Positions 16,668 to 26,015 of a stretch of 64,000 nt of DNA are shown here, one piece after another. The notes under the pieces were generated by a model, which saw only the letters and a program-made list of their open reading frames with translations, was not told where the DNA came from and searched no databases. Source of the DNA: Bacillota bacterium (GTDB lineage: Bacteria > Bacillota > Sulfobacillia > JAJZYS01 > JAJZLH01); contig JAJZLY010000030.1 in assembly GCA_021850485.1 (NCBI GenBank), positions 1 to 64,000 on the forward strand, read 5' to 3'. Each line of letters starts with the position of its first letter. Position 1 is the stretch's first letter. The position numbers and the translations under genes were made by a program.

Positions 16668-17297
16668 CTAAGGACTGGCGGTGACCTGACGCACACTGGG
16701 CATGACCTGCAAGGTTCCGTTCACCACCAGGGTGAACGATTGACTGGTTTGCCCGTCGGTGACCGTGATCTGCCAACTCCCGTCTGACGGGGCGTTGGCC
16801 GTCCAGGGCACGTACAGGGTACCCTGCTGCTGCGAACCAGAGACAGAAAATGGCTGAGCGTTGAGCGACGCATAATTGACATCCTGACCCTCGATCGGGA
16901 CCGTGAGCGCAAAGGCAGCTGGTACTTCGAAATGCACGGGCCGACTGGCCCCAAGCACAACCACAGAAACCGCCTGACCCCGGGCGGCCTGTCTGGCGCC
17001 TCCTTGGATGGCCCAGGCGGTGACGCGGCGGACCCGGGCGATGACCGTGACGGTACGCATGGTAAAGGCCCAGCGACCGCGATCGTCCTCCACCCATAGC
17101 GAAATCGTGTATGTGCCTGGAGCCGAGAAACTCCCCACCCTGCCAAACCAGATTTGCTGCACCAAGCTGTGGCCCGGTGCCGGGTCGTAGGAATTGTCGA
17201 CTACTGAAATGGGCGTGCCCACCAACACGACAGACGGAACTCCAAAGGAAGCCACGGGGGCCGGATAATTAATCGGACCCATGGGGCACCTCCACAT
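16668..17297 (-). CDS. PKD/Ig-like domain protein, last gene of Tad/T4SS-like operon
   Basis: VVDNSYDPAPGH...FSAPGTYTISLWVEDDRG PKD-like motif; overlaps upstream gene. Confidence 0.5.
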   Translation of the reverse strand: MWRCPMGPINYPAPVASFGVPSVVLVGTPISVVDNSYDPAPGHSLVQQIWFGRVGSFSAPGTYTISLWVEDDRGRWAFTMRTVTVIARVRRVTAWAIQGGARQAARGQAVSVVVLGASRPVHFEVPAAFALTVPIEGQDVNYASLNAQPFSVSGSQQQGTLYVPWTANAPSDGSWQITVTDGQTSQSFTLVVNGTLQVMPSVRQVTASP

Positions 17298-17727
17298 CTG
17301 CGTGCACCACTTGCGAAAAGGTCAGACCGAGGAAGACGGTGGAAAACTGTAGACTTCCACCGACCCCTGGCCATGAGAAGCGATACCCGGTGACCGGGTC
17401 GGTACTGCCTGCTGAATAGAGGCTGAGCAACGGCGAGCCGATCGGGATGAGTGCTGCTGGCAGGTCCGCCAGCAGCACTGATGAGAAGACTTGCGTGGCT
17501 CGCTTGCTGTCGAGCTGAGGCCCTGCCGGCCCGACGGGCACCTGCACCTGGCTGCCCGCAGCGTGGAGGGCAAAGACTAGCGCAGAGTATGCCTGGAACC
17601 GGGCCCACACGGTACGTTGCAGTGCCAAGGCGCCACCCAGCGAGACGATGAGGAGCAACTCCAGGAAGACGGCCAGAATGTAGATGACATGTCCATGCTC
17701 ATGGCGCCGCTGGGGCGACTGCTTCAC
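17269..17727 (-). CDS. TadE/TadF-like pseudopilin-type membrane protein
   Basis: single N-terminal TM VIYILAVFLELLLIVSLGGAL, operon context. Confidence 0.5.
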   Translation of the reverse strand: MKQSPQRRHEHGHVIYILAVFLELLLIVSLGGALALQRTVWARFQAYSALVFALHAAGSQVQVPVGPAGPQLDSKRATQVFSSVLLADLPAALIPIGSPLLSLYSAGSTDPVTGYRFSWPGVGGSLQFSTVFLGLTFSQVVHADVEVPHGSD

Positions 17728-18139
17728 TGTCGACTACCTCCTGTTCGCCGAATTGAACGGTAGTTCCGGCCAGTCCGACCAGGGTGAAGGGGAACCCCTG
17801 TAGCGGCACATTGACCCGGACCGTGATCGTCATGGGCTGCCCCCAGGGAACGGACGGAGCGGGCCCGGAGACCCATGGCTGCACGGTCAGCCCGGCGTCG
17901 GCCAGCGACTGCGAAACGCTGTGTGATACAAACGGCGTCACGCCTCCGGCTAACGCAGCGGTCTCAGATCCGACCTGAGCCGCGAATGCCACGTCCGTGG
18001 ACAGCTCGGCGAGATGCAAGGCGGCCATGCCGCCGAACAAGGTGAGCAACAGCAGTGGTAGCACTAGGGCTGTGGCGATGTAGATGTCCAGACTGCCACG
18101 CTCCCTGAAGGCCCTACTGTCCAGTGGTGATCGGTACAT
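17699..18139 (-). CDS. TadE-like pseudopilin-type membrane protein
   Basis: ERGSLDIYIATALVLPLLLLTLFGGMAALHL N-terminal TM with preceding E-x-G-S, operon context. Confidence 0.55.
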   Translation of the reverse strand: MYRSPLDSRAFRERGSLDIYIATALVLPLLLLTLFGGMAALHLAELSTDVAFAAQVGSETAALAGGVTPFVSHSVSQSLADAGLTVQPWVSGPAPSVPWGQPMTITVRVNVPLQGFPFTLVGLAGTTVQFGEQEVVDSEAVAPAAP

Positions 18140-18329
18140 TGAGCCAGGCCGTGACGATGTCGCGGATATGAGCGCCCACGGCGGTGAAGGCGAACAAAAT
18201 AACGCCTGTCAGGCTGATCGCGGCCAGAGCCATGATTCCCTGGGCAATGTACGTGGACAGATCTCCACGCTGCCCGCACAACAGGCGAATCGCAGATTGC
18301 CAGTAGCTGCGCAGTGATAACAAGGACAT
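18114..18329 (-). CDS. Small one-TM membrane protein, possible Flp-type pilin
   Basis: 71 aa, hydrophobic IMALAAISLTGVILFAFTAVGAHI, adjacent to TadC/TadE-like genes. Confidence 0.45.
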   Translation of the reverse strand: MSLLSLRSYWQSAIRLLCGQRGDLSTYIAQGIMALAAISLTGVILFAFTAVGAHIRDIVTAWLNVPITTGQ

Positions 18330-18330
18330 C

Positions 18331-18987
18331 TCAGATGAGCCCCTTTCCGGGCAAGAAGCCGAATTGTTGGATCAGGGTGACAAGATGCGGATAGCCAAAC
18401 AAGATGGCCGCATTGATCATGAAGAGCCCGGCCAGGAGGGTTAAGAGATAGGGAACGAATGTAGCCTGGCGCCGGATCAGAGCCGTGCGGGCTTGCCGGG
18501 CGATCGACTCCTGGGCCGCCATGGTTTGACGGAGCGGGACACCCAGTGTTTCACCAGCGCGAATCGCGGAAATTAGGTTTCGGCCAGCTGGGAAGGCGAG
18601 ATCCCTGGAGAGTCGAGCCAAGGCGGAAGAGAGATCAGAAGAGGCGAGTAGTTCCTCCCGAAAAGAGCGCAGAGGAAGACTGAGCGGTCCCATGACCTCG
18701 ATCGGTAAATGCAGCATGGTGGCCACTACGCTCAGACCATCTTCAGCTGAGATTCGCAACAGCAACAACAGGTCGGGAATCCACGCCGCCCGGGCCTGCA
18801 GCTCTCGCCTCCAGATCAGGCGTTGGATGGCGGGACCGATCTGATACGCAGCGAGCAGAACAAAGGGGGTCAGCGGCGGCCACACCCAGCTCAGGCTGAT
18901 GCCGACCAAACTAGCCGGGTGGGTGGGAGGACGTTTCCAGGCGACAGCGGCGAAAATTAGAGATATGCCCGCGAGGTATGTCACCAC
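18331..18987 (-). CDS. TadC-like type II/IV secretion platform protein
   Basis: PDLLLLLRISAEDGLSVVATMLHLP...FREELLASSDLSSALARLSRD...AGETLGVPLRQTMAAQ T2SF-domain pattern. Confidence 0.75.
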   Translation of the reverse strand: MVTYLAGISLIFAAVAWKRPPTHPASLVGISLSWVWPPLTPFVLLAAYQIGPAIQRLIWRRELQARAAWIPDLLLLLRISAEDGLSVVATMLHLPIEVMGPLSLPLRSFREELLASSDLSSALARLSRDLAFPAGRNLISAIRAGETLGVPLRQTMAAQESIARQARTALIRRQATFVPYLLTLLAGLFMINAAILFGYPHLVTLIQQFGFLPGKGLI

Positions 18988-19637
18988 AGCAGCGACTCAG
19001 GCTGAAACCACGGAGTTGCAAGCATGCTGGCCGTGGTCAGGAGCACCCAGGCGCTGAGCCAGCGTCCAACGCCGACCTGAAAGAGGCTCGTGCTGGCGGG
19101 AGAGGCCACCACCGACGCGATGAGGATCACCTCGACACCAAAGAAGAGTCCGGTGGCGACCCCCAGAGCGGTCTGCTCGCTACGCCACTGGTTGGCCATG
19201 GTGACGCGTTGCTCGACCTCTTGCAGCAAAATCAGAAGGGGGCGCTGGTGGCTTAGGCCAGTGCGCACCGCATCGGCCGTGAACAACTGGCGCAACGAGG
19301 TCTGAAGCCAACGCGGTGCGCTGGGACTGTGTAGGAGAAATGTGACCTGATCTCCTCCGGCCGCCAGGATCTCGTCGGGTTGCAGGGTGAGCGTACTCAT
19401 CTCCAGCATTGATTCCAGGCACCGTTCAGTTGCAGACAGGGTCTGACGCAGGCCGCGATTTCGCTGCCACTTGGTCCACGCCTGAGGGATGATGGCGGCA
19501 AGCAGTATGGCTGGAATCATGGTGACGCCGCCGCCCCAGAGCCATCCCGCCAGGGCGCCTACAGGTAGCAGAACAAGTCCACCGGACACCTGCCCGAAGA
19601 CGACCGCCGCCAGGATAGCTACCAACCAGGCATTCAT
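18981..19637 (-). CDS. TadB-like platform protein
   Basis: Polytopic; CLESMLEMSTLTLQPDEILAAGG; position between CpaF and TadC. Confidence 0.6.
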   Translation of the reverse strand: MNAWLVAILAAVVFGQVSGGLVLLPVGALAGWLWGGGVTMIPAILLAAIIPQAWTKWQRNRGLRQTLSATERCLESMLEMSTLTLQPDEILAAGGDQVTFLLHSPSAPRWLQTSLRQLFTADAVRTGLSHQRPLLILLQEVEQRVTMANQWRSEQTALGVATGLFFGVEVILIASVVASPASTSLFQVGVGRWLSAWVLLTTASMLATPWFQPESLLW

Positions 19638-20635
19638 GAGCGCACCTGGCGACTGGACGACGGTGCCCAGGTGAAGTCACCGGTCTGATCCTCGATGGCG
19701 GCCACTACCGCCCCATGTGCTGACCGGGCCATCACGACCACCAAATCGATTTCGCTGCGAAATGACTCTTCCAGAAAGCCGGTGGATGCCGACGGCATTG
19801 CCGTTTGCGCGAGCCATGCCAGGCGCTGGTGGACACGGTCTGCGGAGAGGGCGTGGATGGTGGCAAACGACCCCGAGTGACCGGAGGTCAGTGCCAGCAG
19901 CCACTCAAAGGCCTCACCGCCGCGCAGTTCACCGATGCCTAGCCGGTCCGGGCGCAGATGCAAGGCATGGCGGACCGCATCGCGCGTCGAGACGGCGAAC
20001 CGGCCCTCACGGTTGGCCGGCCTCGTCTCCAGTTCCACCACGTGATGGTGGCAGCCGGCCAAGAACAACTCACGCACCTCCTCCACGACCACGATGCGGT
20101 CGTCTGCGGGCATCTGGGACACCATCCAGCGGGTCAGCGTCGTCTTGCCGGCGCCGGTGGGCCCGGCCACGATGAATGACCTGTGACTCTGGGAGATGGC
20201 GACCAGGAGATGTTCCACTTCGGCGTCAAAGGTACCGACCGCTCGAAGCGCATCCGTCGACCAGCGATCGGGACGGTGGACGCGCACCGAGATGGACGGC
20301 TCGAGCGAGTACGGGGGAATGGTCAGCCCAACCCGACAGTGTCCCAGGGTGATCGATTGGAAAGGTTGGGCCAGCGACAGGTCCCGCCCTCCGGCCGTGG
20401 CGAGGTGCAGGGCGAGGTCGAGGGCGACCACCACAGACCCAAGCGCGCCAGCGGCTAGCAGGTGCCCGTCCCGGCAGATGGTAACGGTGGTGCCGCAGAC
20501 GAAGATGTCGGAGACCTGAGGATCTGCCAAAAAGGGGCGAAGGGGTCCCCACGGCGGTTCGCGCGGGTCGTCAGAGAGGTGTGGTGCGTCCCGGTTAAAG
20601 ATCACCGATCGGTCGGGATTGCTCAACGGCTGCAA
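19634..20635 (-). CDS. CpaF/TadA/VirB11-type secretion ATPase
   Basis: IVAGPTGAGKTTLTRWM Walker A; VVVEEVRELFL; LRPDRLGIGELRGGEAFEWLLALTSGHSGSFATIHA. Confidence 0.9.
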   Translation of the reverse strand: MQPLSNPDRSVIFNRDAPHLSDDPREPPWGPLRPFLADPQVSDIFVCGTTVTICRDGHLLAAGALGSVVVALDLALHLATAGGRDLSLAQPFQSITLGHCRVGLTIPPYSLEPSISVRVHRPDRWSTDALRAVGTFDAEVEHLLVAISQSHRSFIVAGPTGAGKTTLTRWMVSQMPADDRIVVVEEVRELFLAGCHHHVVELETRPANREGRFAVSTRDAVRHALHLRPDRLGIGELRGGEAFEWLLALTSGHSGSFATIHALSADRVHQRLAWLAQTAMPSASTGFLEESFRSEIDLVVVMARSAHGAVVAAIEDQTGDFTWAPSSSRQVRS

Positions 20636-21521
20636 CAGATGTCACCTCGTGCATGCGAAGCCTATGGAAAAGGTCGCGAAAGGGGCTCAGGGCCGGTGTC
20701 GACAGCGGCTGGCCGGAGACCAGAAGATCAACCGGGGGAAAGCGCAGCCGCGGAATGGAAATGGCGCCCGCCTGCGGCGGGTGGCAGCGCCCCAAGATGT
20801 GGTTGGCAACCCGAAAGTCACCCCCGACCGCAGTCCGTCGCCGGAGAGCTGGGGCGCAGACCACGCTTACCGTTGCACCGTCGCCAGACTCGGCGGCTCC
20901 GTCCACAATGGTCACCGCTGGCCAGGCCGGCCGCGGGCTCTCCGCATCCACGATGAATCGCCCCAGTTGGGGCCCAAGGACCGGATGCCCGAGCAGGTAG
21001 GTCTGAAGCAATCGGTCTGTCGATCGATCGAGCAGATATGTGGCGGCTCCGCGCGACTGACTGTAGAGGAAGAGCCCGAGTGCGACCGTGCTCTGGCCGA
21101 GACTGCCGGAAGTTCGACGGCAGGAGATCAGTGTCGGAGGCGGCAGGGCAGCCGCTAGGAATTGCAGCAAGGTGTCACCGGAAAAAGGCCCGCTGAGCAC
21201 ATGCCGGATGCCCACCTGCCGAAGGCTGATGGTGACGGCGCGATCGAAGATGGAATCAGGGAGAATGTAGATGATCCGCTGCGGAGGGATCGCCAGCGTG
21301 CGCAGGAAGTCGGCCGGATGGGCGGGCATGTCCGGGAGGCTGTGACTCAGGACCAGCACCTCCGGCGCGTGCGCAGCGACAGCCGCAGCCAGCAGCGAAG
21401 CGGAGCGGACCTCGGCGAGGACCCGGATCGGCTCATGCTGCTCTAAGAATCGGCAGACCGCGTCTTGATCCAACCGACTATGGGCGGCAACGACAATGCC
21501 GGGCCGGACTAGGGTATCCAT
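20595..21521 (-). CDS. TadZ/CpaE-like protein with degenerate P-loop
   Basis: Receiver-like N-terminus (APEVLVLSHSLPDMPA); SGSLGQSTVALGL in place of deviant Walker A. Confidence 0.55.
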   Translation of the reverse strand: MDTLVRPGIVVAAHSRLDQDAVCRFLEQHEPIRVLAEVRSASLLAAAVAAHAPEVLVLSHSLPDMPAHPADFLRTLAIPPQRIIYILPDSIFDRAVTISLRQVGIRHVLSGPFSGDTLLQFLAAALPPPTLISCRRTSGSLGQSTVALGLFLYSQSRGAATYLLDRSTDRLLQTYLLGHPVLGPQLGRFIVDAESPRPAWPAVTIVDGAAESGDGATVSVVCAPALRRRTAVGGDFRVANHILGRCHPPQAGAISIPRLRFPPVDLLVSGQPLSTPALSPFRDLFHRLRMHEVTSVAAVEQSRPIGDL

Positions 21522-22084
21522 GGCAGGACAACGACCTTCCCGGAACTGACGGCGAACTCCACCAGTTCCGCTTGTGCCTGGGACAAGCTGACCGCCACGA
21601 AGCTCCCCTGGGGTGTTGTTGAGGTGCTGCTGACCATCGCCCTGGGAACCAGCACTTGGGGTGGAGTACCGCTGAGCAAGAGCATCACGGCAGCCTTGGG
21701 GCCAAGGTCTGGAGGCAATGTAGTAACGGGGATGCTAACTTCCAGCTGTGAGAGGGGTGGAGCTGCGGGGGCCCTGCCATGCGTCAGAGCACCCGCACAG
21801 ACGATCGCATTGGCCGGAAGTGCGTTGCGCAGGTGCCAGCCGACTGGCGACCGACGAACGGCGCCGGGAGGAAGGGCCGAGCCGACCACTGCCGACAGAG
21901 CGCGCAGGTCGGAACTCACCAGGGTGGCACCTGCTGGCAGGGCGCGGGCGGTCACCCACACCGTGGTCGTCGGTGTGCGGGCCGGAAGCAGGGCCAAGAC
22001 CAAAGCCACCGAGGAGAGCCCCAGTGGGACCATCGACCACAGCTTGTGCCCGGACTGGAGGGCGGGAAGACGAAAAAATCCCAT
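21509..22084 (-). CDS. CpaB/RcpC-like SAF-domain protein
   Basis: N-terminal TM then TVWVTARALPAGATLVSSDLRAL SAF-like motif. Confidence 0.65.
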   Translation of the reverse strand: MGFFRLPALQSGHKLWSMVPLGLSSVALVLALLPARTPTTTVWVTARALPAGATLVSSDLRALSAVVGSALPPGAVRRSPVGWHLRNALPANAIVCAGALTHGRAPAAPPLSQLEVSIPVTTLPPDLGPKAAVMLLLSGTPPQVLVPRAMVSSTSTTPQGSFVAVSLSQAQAELVEFAVSSGKVVVLPWIP

Positions 22085-22096
22085 GGTGCCGCCTCC

Positions 22097-23974
22097 CTAG
22101 CGAAGCGAGATGGGGGTGGTATCAGTAATCGATGCCTCCAAAGCATTGAGGCTAAGTCTGACGGGACGGACGCCGTCATCAATCAACAGGGCCTCGCCAG
22201 GCTGGGCCACAGACAGCCAGTGGGTGGGCCGATGCGACAGCTGGTATCTCTCGCAGATCAATCGCAGGTCATCTGCACTCTGCCGAAAGAGCACCAGCAT
22301 CCCGGCATTGGACAGCATCAGCCGCCCATCGTCTGCCAGCAGGAAGTCCCCGACGTTTTGCGTGATTCCCGTGAAGCTGACCCCGGCCTTGCGTGAGCGC
22401 TTGAGGAACGACAGCAGACCCTGCCGGACTTGGGGATGGTGCAAGAAGAGGTGCACCTCATCGAGAGTCACGGACAAGGGGTACCCCTGTTGTCGGTGGA
22501 CGCGCAGCCAGTCTCCGACCAACTCGAGGAGTAAGGGCACTGCAGCAGCGACCGTCTCAGCGTCTGCCTGAGCCAGATTGAATGAGATGATGCGGTGATC
22601 CGGGAAGCGGCGCAGAGGGCCAGAAAAACCGCGCAACGGGCCGTCAGCGTACGGCCAGACAGCAGGGTACAGGGGATCACTACTGGGAATGCGCCGCAGC
22701 AGGTCTCGAAAGGTTGGCGCGGTCGTCTGCCGGTAGCAATCGGTGAGTAGCAGCCTGAGCCGGAGCACTTCTGCCGATCCCAGAGAGCCGGCCAGCAGTG
22801 GCGGGATCCGCAGAAGTTTGCCCTCCAGGTCGCCTGGTTGCGGGGCCGCCAGCGGATTGAGATGGCCGCTATTGGTGCCGATTGGGATGGACATCCCCTG
22901 CAGATGGCGGACCAGCAACTCGTACTCACCCTCGGGATCGAAGACGATGGCCCGCGCTTGCGTTGACTCCAGCCGACGAAGTAGCTCCACTTTGCTAAAC
23001 GTTGACTTGCCACTCCCGGGAAGGCCGAGAACGAATGCGGACGGATTGGCCTTGCGGCGGTCGTGACTGACCAGAGCGCGGTGATCCGGATCGATCCCGA
23101 TGAACAGGTCGCGGCGGTCGCTTATCGGTGGCGCCGACCACTCGTATAGACCCAGGTGAATTAGGGTCTGGGCGTCAAGCATGCGAACCAAAGGAGGCAT
23201 GGCTGAGAAGTGATCGCCGAACAAGGTCGACAGCTGTGCCTGTTGGAAGGGAACCGGCGAGAACGTGAATCCAAGTCCCTGCGCCAGTTGCTGAAACGAA
23301 CGGGGCGCCGGGTCTGCAGGTGATCCGGAAACAGCGGCCACAAGACCAACCCTGAACAGTCGATTCATCCGACCAGAGACCTGCCCTAGTAGCGCCTCCG
23401 CGTCCTGTGCGGACTGCTGGAAGGCGGGATCCTTTGCGCTGTGTGGGCGAAGCACCCGCAGCCGGTGGCGGAGCATGCGGGTCGCCTCGTGGGCCGGCAG
23501 GGGCCGACAGTCAACGAGCAGATCCAGACCGGTCGGGAAGGTGAAGAGCGGAGCCAGAAGGTCCGGAGAGACCTGAGCCGGCCACCTGACCGCCATCAGC
23601 ATGGTGATGTCTCCTCTGGCCCCGGAGAGATGGCGAAGGTGCTCGGTGGCTGGGGAGCCACCCGGGGCCGCGAGCAGAGGGTCGGGGCGGTCAAGGTGCA
23701 GATGGCGGGCGATGGGGTGGACTGACGAGCGGCCGGGGGTGAGCAGGTGGAGTTCCATGTGCAGCAGATCGATGGGAGGTGAGAGCCTGGAGCGGGTGAG
23801 ATGGTCGAGGTACGAATGGGTGCCGGAGGCGACCTCGCTCAGGGGTCGAGACCTGTACCAGAATTTAATGTCGTGAGGGACACTGAGGAGAAAGTTCAAA
23901 TCCTGAGCCTGTAGCGAGGTTAGGTCGTCATCTGGCAGCCACCGCACCGGGATAGGGTGGATCAGTTCGACCAC
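22097..23974 (-). CDS. VirB4/TraC-type T4SS ATPase
   Basis: VLGLPGSGKSTFSKVELL Walker A, RAIVFDPEGEYELLVRHL, VTLDEVHLFL Walker B, FTGITQNVGDFL; start refined to GTG 23974. Confidence 0.88.
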   Translation of the reverse strand: MVELIHPIPVRWLPDDDLTSLQAQDLNFLLSVPHDIKFWYRSRPLSEVASGTHSYLDHLTRSRLSPPIDLLHMELHLLTPGRSSVHPIARHLHLDRPDPLLAAPGGSPATEHLRHLSGARGDITMLMAVRWPAQVSPDLLAPLFTFPTGLDLLVDCRPLPAHEATRMLRHRLRVLRPHSAKDPAFQQSAQDAEALLGQVSGRMNRLFRVGLVAAVSGSPADPAPRSFQQLAQGLGFTFSPVPFQQAQLSTLFGDHFSAMPPLVRMLDAQTLIHLGLYEWSAPPISDRRDLFIGIDPDHRALVSHDRRKANPSAFVLGLPGSGKSTFSKVELLRRLESTQARAIVFDPEGEYELLVRHLQGMSIPIGTNSGHLNPLAAPQPGDLEGKLLRIPPLLAGSLGSAEVLRLRLLLTDCYRQTTAPTFRDLLRRIPSSDPLYPAVWPYADGPLRGFSGPLRRFPDHRIISFNLAQADAETVAAAVPLLLELVGDWLRVHRQQGYPLSVTLDEVHLFLHHPQVRQGLLSFLKRSRKAGVSFTGITQNVGDFLLADDGRLMLSNAGMLVLFRQSADDLRLICERYQLSHRPTHWLSVAQPGEALLIDDGVRPVRLSLNALEASITDTTPISLR

Positions 23975-23982
23975 GACAGACC

Positions 23983-24297
23983 TCAGGTGCGGCCAAGGCG
24001 GGTGGCGACCTCTGTGCCTTGGCGTCGTCGCCGGACGCCTCGGCGCAGACTCCATAGGACGGCCCAGGTGAGCAAAAGCCGTACGGAAATCCCGTCGACC
24101 GCGCCGAAACCGACCACGAGGAACGTCGCCCACAGGCAGATCACCAGCGCGCCAAAGGCGGCCGAAGAAGAGGTCATCAGCTGGAACGACACGATGACTA
24201 AGACCACGCCCACCAGCGCAGTCCAAGCATCGAGTCCCCACAGCACAGGCTCAGCCGTTTGCAGCAAATCCTGAGGAACATGGTGGTGGGAGCGCAT
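23983..24297 (-). CDS. Small membrane protein, position consistent with VirB3/PrgI-like
   Basis: 2-3 TM, directly upstream of VirB4. Confidence 0.45.
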   Translation of the reverse strand: MRSHHHVPQDLLQTAEPVLWGLDAWTALVGVVLVIVSFQLMTSSSAAFGALVICLWATFLVVGFGAVDGISVRLLLTWAVLWSLRRGVRRRRQGTEVATRLGRT

Positions 24298-24321
24298 ATG
24301 GACGGCACCTCTGCTTTCGTC

Positions 24322-25074
24322 TTAGAAGTTCAGCCATTGAGCCGCCAGCATCCAGGCTGGAGCGTCGCGTCTGGCTCCAGTAACCATCGCTCGCAATAGA
24401 GCGGGGGCACGGATCATGAGGTAGAGGGCGGCGAGTCCAACCAGTGCGTTGGCTGGGCCTAGACCCTCTAGGCCAGACAGACCCCGGGACAAAACCAACA
24501 CGAAGGCCTGCACCGTCTGAACCAACGTGATCACCACGAGCTCTTGCAGATACCTGCCTCCGATCGGCCGAGATACTGGCCAAGCCAGGGCCATCAGGCC
24601 CAGCGGCGATATGGTTGCCAGAAACATCAACTCGATCGCTCTGATCAGATAGACGACTGTCAGAATCAGGAGCAGGACAAGGTAGGGCAGCCAGAAGACG
24701 AGGTCGGCGAGCACCCGGGTTGGCAGCGATACGGGAGTGAGCTGAAGAGCGACCTGAGAAGCCAGAGAGGAGATGAGAGCGTTGTTCAGGCGGATGAGAA
24801 AGATGCAAATGCGCATGGAGAGCAATGCCAAGATCAGGGTCGAACCCAGGGAGATGACCAACCGCAGCCAGTCGACTCTTACACCGGAGATCATCTGAGA
24901 GGCAGTCAGCAGGACAAGCAAGAGGGCACAAACACCGACCAGCGATAGGGAGAAGTGCCACAGGGAAGCGACGATGGGAAGCAACCAGACGTCTGGTGTG
25001 ATTGCGACCAATGGGGCGAGAACCCCAAATACGCTCTGCAGCACCGGTTGAACGGCTCCGGCGATGATGTTCAA
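24322..25074 (-). CDS. TrbL/VirB6-like polytopic membrane protein
   Basis: ~6 TM segments; TTG start 25074 overlaps upstream stop (TTGA); located between VirB2-like and VirB4. Confidence 0.65.
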   Translation of the reverse strand: MNIIAGAVQPVLQSVFGVLAPLVAITPDVWLLPIVASLWHFSLSLVGVCALLLVLLTASQMISGVRVDWLRLVISLGSTLILALLSMRICIFLIRLNNALISSLASQVALQLTPVSLPTRVLADLVFWLPYLVLLLILTVVYLIRAIELMFLATISPLGLMALAWPVSRPIGGRYLQELVVITLVQTVQAFVLVLSRGLSGLEGLGPANALVGLAALYLMIRAPALLRAMVTGARRDAPAWMLAAQWLNF

Positions 25075-25310
25075 AAGGGCGCCCCCTGCCCTGCCCACGA
25101 ATAGACAAGACGCACCAAGTCCTGGGCGAATACCACCACCACGAGCCCACCGACAACGGCGGCCAAGTGCTTCCAGGCGTGACTGCGCTGGCTGGGGTTG
25201 TCTCCGCTGGTCCACAGGAGATAGCCACCCCACAGCAAGAACAAGACACTGGCTGTGCCCAGCCATGCCTGGACAGAAGAGATGACGTTAAGAAGAAAGT
25301 GCTGAACCAT
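25071..25310 (-). CDS. TrbC/VirB2-like pilin-type small membrane protein
   Basis: 79 aa, two hydrophobic segments (SVLFLLWGGYLLW; LAAVVGGLVVVVFAQDLVRLVY), AAGGAG RBS, first gene of operon. Confidence 0.6.
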   Translation of the reverse strand: MVQHFLLNVISSVQAWLGTASVLFLLWGGYLLWTSGDNPSQRSHAWKHLAAVVGGLVVVVFAQDLVRLVYSWAGQGAPF

Positions 25311-25553: not shown

Positions 25554-26015
25554 TTAGGTCGAGGCGGCAAGAGCAGCTTGGAGTTCAACCATGTCCAGGG
25601 ACTGCTGCGGGTTGGCCTGCGCCCGCAGGTAGCGCACGGTCCCTCCTCGGTCGATAATCGCCGTTGCGCTGGTTTGAAGCGTCCCGGCGAGCACTCTGGG
25701 AAGCGCCAGAGCGGCATACAGGCTGCGCGTGGGGTCAGCCAGCAGGGGGATAGACAAGGACATGGAGGCGACCCGGCGGTCGCATGCGGCCTGAGTAGCC
25801 GGTGCTACGGCAATGCCGGCAATGTCTGCCTTTGCCCAGAGAGTGCTCTGCGCAGCTAACTGCCGCGCGTTTCGTTGGCAGGCAATTCAGGTCACGGCCC
25901 GCATCAGGTGGACGGCCGTGAGGCGGTGCTCAGAAAACAGCTGACGCCAGGTACGATCTGCTGCGACTTGGGAGTCAAGTACAAGGTCCGAGAGTGGCAC
26001 ATCAATAATACTCAT
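25554..26015 (-). CDS. Redoxin/peroxiredoxin-like protein with in-frame TGA (candidate selenocysteine, UxxC)
   Basis: Continuous frame MSIIDVPLSDLVLDSQVAADRTWRQLFSEHRLTAVHLMRAVT[TGA]IACQRNARQLAAQ...IAGIAVAPA...IPLLADPTRSLYAAL...ATAIIDRGGTVRYLRAQANPQQSLDMVELQAALAAST. Confidence 0.6.

Follow-up and report, generated by a model that had tools for sequence, protein, structure and literature searches.

A chromosomal operon joining a VirB2-VirB6-VirB4 core to Tad-type genes, a candidate domesticated conjugation machine in Bacillota

The stretch of DNA analysed here (the window, 64,000 nucleotides of contig JAJZLY010000030.1 from a Bacillota bacterium of the class Sulfobacillia) carries an operon in which genes of a type IV secretion system (T4SS) are followed by those of a Tad-type pilus machine. 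Thirteen tightly packed open reading frames (ORFs), several with overlapping ends, occupy positions 16668-25310 of the minus strand in the order VirB2, VirB6/TrbL, VirB3-like, VirB4, CpaB/SAF, TadZ-like, CpaF, TadB, TadC, three pilin/TadE-like proteins and a PKD-like protein. Judging from sequence, we give about an even chance to the view that they encode a monoderm conjugation machine, fixed in the chromosome ("domesticated") and provided by the same operon with a dedicated Tad-type motor and platform, which would carry host DNA from cell to cell. The VirB4 plus TadB/TadC hybrid proposed in the initial annotation of the window is real and conserved according to both profiles and synteny.

The T4SS part begins with a VirB2-like conjugative pilin of 79 amino acids with two hydrophobic segments (25071-25310; PF18895 35.0 bits and PF04956 31.4 bits, both over cut-off), followed by a VirB6/TrbL-like channel protein (24322-25074; PF19597 TrbL_4 35.6 bits, over cut-off), and these matches uphold the identities that both proteins had been given initially. 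A VirB3/PrgI-like small membrane protein of 104 amino acids comes next (23983-24297); its PrgI score of 15.9 bits is below the cut-off of 27, and profile homology is clear for the protein found at the same position in a related family. The VirB4 ATPase (22097-23974) has intact Walker A (GLPGSGKS) and Walker B (SVTLDE) motifs, a Pfam match to DUF87 at cut-off, a match to the NCBIfam VirB4 model CD1110 (E=6e-43, below that model's curated cut-off) and a counterpart among solved structures (PDB VirB4 4ag5, E=5e-11). On the basis of lengths conserved in relatives, and not of the earliest start codon in the ORF concerned, the start of VirB6 was set to a TTG at 25074 (24325-25074, 250 amino acids) and that of VirB4 to a GTG at 23974 (22100-23974, 625 amino acids; the ORF reaches 24241).

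The Tad part is anchored by CpaF/TadA, a secretion ATPase of the VirB11 superfamily (19634-20635) with intact Walker A/B motifs and a PF00437 (T2SSE) match of 106 bits, over cut-off; its best NCBIfam model is TIGR03819, "TadA family conjugal transfer-associated ATPase" (204 bits, below the cut-off of 373). It is preceded by a CpaB-like SAF-domain protein (21509-22084; PF08666 SAF 21.3 bits, over cut-off) and by a TadZ-like protein (20595-21521), placed by its position between cpaB and cpaF and by a predicted model with a receiver-like N-terminal domain and a degenerate P-loop domain, which has a low confidence (mean pLDDT 60) and matches receiver domains in Foldseek with a probability of 1.00. 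TadC (18331-18987) scores 19.9 bits against T2SSF, below cut-off, its relative in a second family reaches 27.4 bits, over cut-off, and phmmer gives 1e-9 to 1e-10. TadB (18981-19637) is recognized mainly by position, its positional counterpart in that family having 16.9 bits for T2SSF, below cut-off, and its structure model was uninformative. Three small proteins follow: a 71-amino-acid pilin-like protein (18114-18329; N-terminus QRG/DLSTYIAQGIMALAAISL) that is 77-85% identical in the genus, a TadE-like minor pilin, TadE1 (17699-18139; RERG/SLDIY then a hydrophobic stretch; TadE 13.9 bits, below cut-off), and a second TadE/F-like protein, TadE2 (17269-17727; HEHG/HVIY then a hydrophobic stretch). 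The last gene encodes a PKD-like protein (16668-17297; PKD_4 17.3 bits, below cut-off) kept in both same-genus genomes. Profile searches of the window proteins returned no family match for TadB, TadE2, TadZ and the 71-amino-acid protein, which were assigned via position, relatives or N-terminal motif, and searches of solved structures gave no meaningful match for VirB2 (by profile) or for VirD4, described below. A sigma-70-like promoter scan was negative, an Rfam search had no match, and a scan for LexA-like boxes found two weak matches, neither upstream of virB2. A short redoxin/AhpC-like frame upstream of virB2 (25554-25763, 69 amino acids, below Pfam cut-offs), which resembles the C-terminal part of such proteins, is also kept in both same-genus genomes.

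The gene order is maintained well beyond the genus. The two same-genus genomes that were sampled (G388 and G281) carry the full set of 13 genes in the same order, and in another family of the order (f2) four genomes of four keep VirB2-VirB6-VirB3-VirB4-CpaB-CpaF-TadB-TadC and have a TadZ-like gene ahead of CpaF. A third family (G470) displays VirB2-VirB6-VirB4-TadZ up to the contig end, and in a more distant, Sulfobacillus-like family (f5, whose genus is probably Sulfobacillus; G469) the same nine-gene order is found with a 244-amino-acid protein of no known family in the place of VirB3. VirB4 as a chance neighbour of the tad genes, a possibility left standing by the initial annotation, is ruled out by this synteny, within the genus as well as across families. 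The operon genes are all under purifying selection, with ratios of nonsynonymous to synonymous polymorphism (pN/pS) between genus members of 0.05-0.57 per gene, similar to the 0.22-0.26 obtained with Mfd. The most conserved of the operon proteins is VirB2 (95-96% identity within the genus, pN/pS 0.05), which can be aligned across families. In each of the four f2 genomes, the gene next upstream of virB2 is a small SSB gene (L061:11204-11557, L062:13838-14272, L063:13326-13796 and L064:11570-11929).

The chromosomal site is also partly shared. In the source family (f1), the operon is flanked by rsmI-abrB on one side and by a redoxin-like fragment, glyoxalase and metG on the other, toward ksgA (the G388 contig stops short of metG), and in two f2 genomes (G348 and G455) it lies directly beside metG-yabE-ksgA; the rsmI-abrB flank is not common to both families. 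No integrase was seen among the flanking ORFs scanned, both flanks hold housekeeping genes, and the base composition of the operon, including its guanine-plus-cytosine (GC) content, matches the surroundings. In the VirB4 tree, nine genomes of the order form one clade (SH 98), apart from the sampled plasmid VirB4s. As far as its context and phylogeny can tell, the operon is inherited like ordinary chromosomal genes and is not mobile. Related T4SS plus Tad sets do occur on plasmids, and an integrated region of this kind is present in a Sulfobacillus thermotolerans chromosome, as would be expected for a stranded or still mobile fragment of an integrative and conjugative element or of a plasmid; the metG-side site common to two families and the constraint on the genes speak strongly against such an origin, as do the housekeeping flanks and the native-like GC content, and we consider it highly improbable. 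A mobile-element remnant was rejected on account of the conserved site together with purifying selection.

Further parts of a transfer apparatus lie elsewhere on the chromosome. A VirD4-type ATPase of 492 amino acids (G000:C2:134505-135980; PF02534 35.6 bits, over cut-off) is immediately followed by a Replic_Relax protein (PF13814, 47.2 bits, over cut-off), and a prepilin peptidase (PF01478, 67.7 bits) is found at G000:C15:69748. The initial annotation was right that the locus itself has no VirD4, relaxase or prepilin peptidase, but VirD4, a relaxase-family protein (Replic_Relax) and a prepilin peptidase are encoded at a distance, and their presence makes DNA transfer more plausible than was thought when conjugation was judged not evident. 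The VirD4/Replic_Relax pair recurs in f2 and in f5, where it stands beside minC and where the Replic_Relax match passes the cut-off in G305 but not in G469. Across an alignment of nine Replic_Relax sequences, including an Embleya plasmid protein, the P-D, E-x-D, K and Y residues are invariant. PF13814 is listed as a relaxase domain in two papers, one of them as MOBC (PMC5357655); the search for relaxases covered this one family, and the protein is a putative relaxase. Protein delivery is the function of many chromosomal T4SS that have no relaxase gene linked to them, and those of Patescibacteria, where relaxase-poor chromosomal T4SS are known, appear co-opted for other roles, so that the VirD4-type ATPase might conceivably be an effector receptor of a protein-delivery system. 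With Replic_Relax adjoining VirD4, and with no effector-like or cargo genes seen beside the conserved core, such a function is quite improbable. Directly upstream of virD4 in f1 are SbcD/SbcC (Mre11/Rad50)-like genes (L119:10057-13375), which recall the Rad50 of archaeal Ted loci; this linkage was not seen in f2.

The prepilin peptidase is near a separate, classical Tad locus on contig C15 (L116:5579-11895) encoding TadE, a TadG-like protein, CpaB, TadZ/CpaE, CpaF, TadB and TadC. The window operon therefore does not hold the sole Tad machine of the genome. Classical Tad pili are adhesive. Adhesive pili are also elaborated by some T4SS that lack VirD4 (PMC12857230), and the rank of VirB2 as most conserved protein would suit a two-motor adhesion or aggregation organelle, in which VirB2 and Tad-type filaments attach cells without any DNA cargo. 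We hold this distinctly unlikely, since the genome already has its classical Tad locus and since only a DNA cargo accounts for the conservation of VirD4, Replic_Relax and SSB.

Competence genes were surveyed in 101 genomes of the class, with the core defined as contiguous VirB2-VirB6-VirB4. ComEC (PF03772) was matched in 73 genomes, all among the 80 without the core (seven of these had no match), versus none of the 21 core-bearing ones. Strong ComEA-type HHH_3 matches were likewise not found in the 21 core-bearing genomes, save that of G425, in an 802-amino-acid frame that is probably Tex. Of the seven genomes with neither the core nor a ComEC match, three (G414, G458 and G473) retain a strong ComEA-type match, so that their lack of ComEC may reflect gaps in the assemblies; two (G474 and G475) are less than 90% complete, and two (G436 and G478) have a VirB4 match only. 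In a tree of Mfd, the 21 core genomes fall in two clades, one of 19 ComEC-negative genomes, of which 18 have the core (SH 84), and one of four genomes, of which three have it (SH 99). The co-occurrence of the core with ComEC absence, two independent cases without a counter-example, is suggestive. In the second lineage (G436, G456, G471 and G479; L071, L072, L136 and L137), neither ComEC nor strong ComEA was found, VirB4 is present in all, and VirB2-VirB6 accompany it in three of the four.

The same pattern would be expected if the operon were a DNA-uptake machine replacing ComEC, in which the T4SS core would import free or neighbour DNA captured by the Tad-type (pseudo)pilus. Transformation of Micrococcus luteus requires Flp/tad pili (PMC4322843), ComB of Helicobacter pylori is an importer derived from a T4SS (PMC12857230), and SSB stands beside virB2 in f2. 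However, ComB has no VirD4 (PMC12857230), ComEC is still needed for Flp-dependent uptake in M. luteus (PMC4322843), and the conserved VirD4 and relaxase-family pair favours conjugative export or exchange; we therefore regard uptake as unlikely.

In the preferred reading, a domesticated conjugation machine, the relaxase-family protein would nick or otherwise handle host DNA and VirD4 would hand the strand to VirB4, which with VirB3 and VirB6 may drive it across the membrane in a channel that VirB2 would prolong. A short (pseudo)pilus, assembled by CpaF, TadB and TadC together with the TadE/pilin-like proteins, could link cells or provide a passage across the wall, and TadZ would position the machine. 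The predicted cargo is host DNA, exchanged between cells in lineages where ComEC and ComEA are not found; the direction would be export by homology, or import as in the archaeal Ced system. Several observations weigh against this scheme. VirD4 and Replic_Relax are encoded at a second chromosomal locus without linkage to the operon, the Replic_Relax protein of f1 has a length of only 182 amino acids, and no oriT or substrate was identified. The Flp prepilin motif G/XXXXEY is not found, the 71-amino-acid protein having G/DLSTY, without the Flp E5, and TadE1 having G/SLDIY, and no pilin/TadE-like genes were recognized beside TadC in f2. In draft genomes, absence of ComEC means absence of detection. 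An independent-pairs test of ComEC against the core, with only two lineages, gives two concordant and no discordant pairs, which is not significant; ComEC loss was thus discarded as statistical proof, the Fisher p value of 5e-16 ignoring phylogeny. Finally, the clade of the order is not joined to the Sulfobacillus-like f5 clade in either the VirB4 or the CpaF tree (in the latter, four rows labelled "classical", L079, L080, L083 and L088, are f2 hybrid loci entered twice). These trees do not support the idea that the ComEC-negative clade, with its 19 genomes, had one ancestral hybrid, and since they keep the order and f5 clades separate, fixation of the system may have occurred more than once.

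The combination of T4SS and Tad genes is not wholly new. The S. thermotolerans plasmids pL15/pY0017, described as a "nonpheromone conjugation system" (PMC6803676; NC_016040), join TrbL, VirB4 and VirD4 with CpaF, TadB and TadC, and a plasmid of Embleya sp. (NZ_CP108778) carries PrgI-VirB4-VirD4-Replic_Relax then SAF-(TadZ position)-CpaF-T2SSF-T2SSF-small-TadE-TadE/G, a Tad order identical to that of the window; both contradict the initial statement that conjugative T4SS loci are normally without TadB/TadC. The order of the modules on the plasmids of either host is that of the window operon, which counts in favour of the conjugation reading. In contrast to the window operon, these sets are plasmid-borne and split. 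The T4SS and Tad parts of pL15/pY0017 are ~14 kb apart, with a MOBP relaxase, a lytic transglycosylase and a VirB4 of another clade, and the Embleya halves are ~10 kb apart, with linked VirD4 and relaxase and a large VirB6. The Carboxydocella plasmid pCCELLA01 (L096, CP028515) has a Tad set with CpaA and CpaB, as well as VirD4 and a MOBC-typed relaxase. Monoderm conjugative T4SS (MPF_FATA-like) resemble the operon by VirB4 with Walker motifs, VirB6/TrbL, a VirB2-like protein and, unlinked in the genome, VirD4, although the window operon is not carried by a mobile element. Tad/Flp pili share the CpaF/TadA ATPase of the operon and the prepilin peptidase of the genome, but not the missing Flp prepilin. 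The actinobacterial Flp/Tad transformation pili of M. luteus have a minimal tadA-tadB-tadC-flp-tadE order in a monoderm whose DNA entry needs the pilus (PMC4322843), whereas they lack VirB4 and work with ComEC/ComEA. PAPI-1 of Pseudomonas aeruginosa is a chimera in which VirB4 and VirD4 are combined with a type IV pilus essential for DNA transfer (PMC12857230), in a diderm, on a mobile island and without Tad. In archaeal Ced/Ted DNA exchange, a chromosomal VirB2/VirB6/VirB4 trio works with the type IV pilus Ups, and Ted loci carry ParA/MinD, Rad50 and HerA genes (PMC9905601, PMC11868833). The window operon is alike in being a chromosomal, vertically kept VirB2/VirB6/VirB4 set, a likeness of gene content, but the archaeal systems have their pilus genes outside the channel operon and no recognized relaxase or VirD4, protein families that the window genome has elsewhere.

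To conclude, the chromosomal, vertically inherited version of the T4SS plus Tad combination looks new, no such bacterial operon having been found described in a limited search of the open-access literature. The Ced/Ted authors knew of no report, outside the archaeal case, of a conjugation apparatus domesticated for DNA transfer (PMC9905601), and according to a 2025 review Gram-positive T4SS are universally without VirB11-type ATPases (PMC12857230); the window operon and its plasmid relatives offer a bacterial candidate for the former and an apparent exception to the latter. Since the relatives probably include cultured Sulfobacillus, the system is open to testing. It is a tentative proposition, to which we give somewhat less than an even chance, that a whole Bacillota lineage made a conjugation machine and a Tad motor a permanent part of its chromosome, with which it exchanges its own DNA, and lost ComEC/ComEA transformation, as the first bacterial counterpart of Ced/Ted, and that a second lineage (f172/f178) may have done so independently. 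If true, this would give bacteria without ComEC a route for gene exchange.

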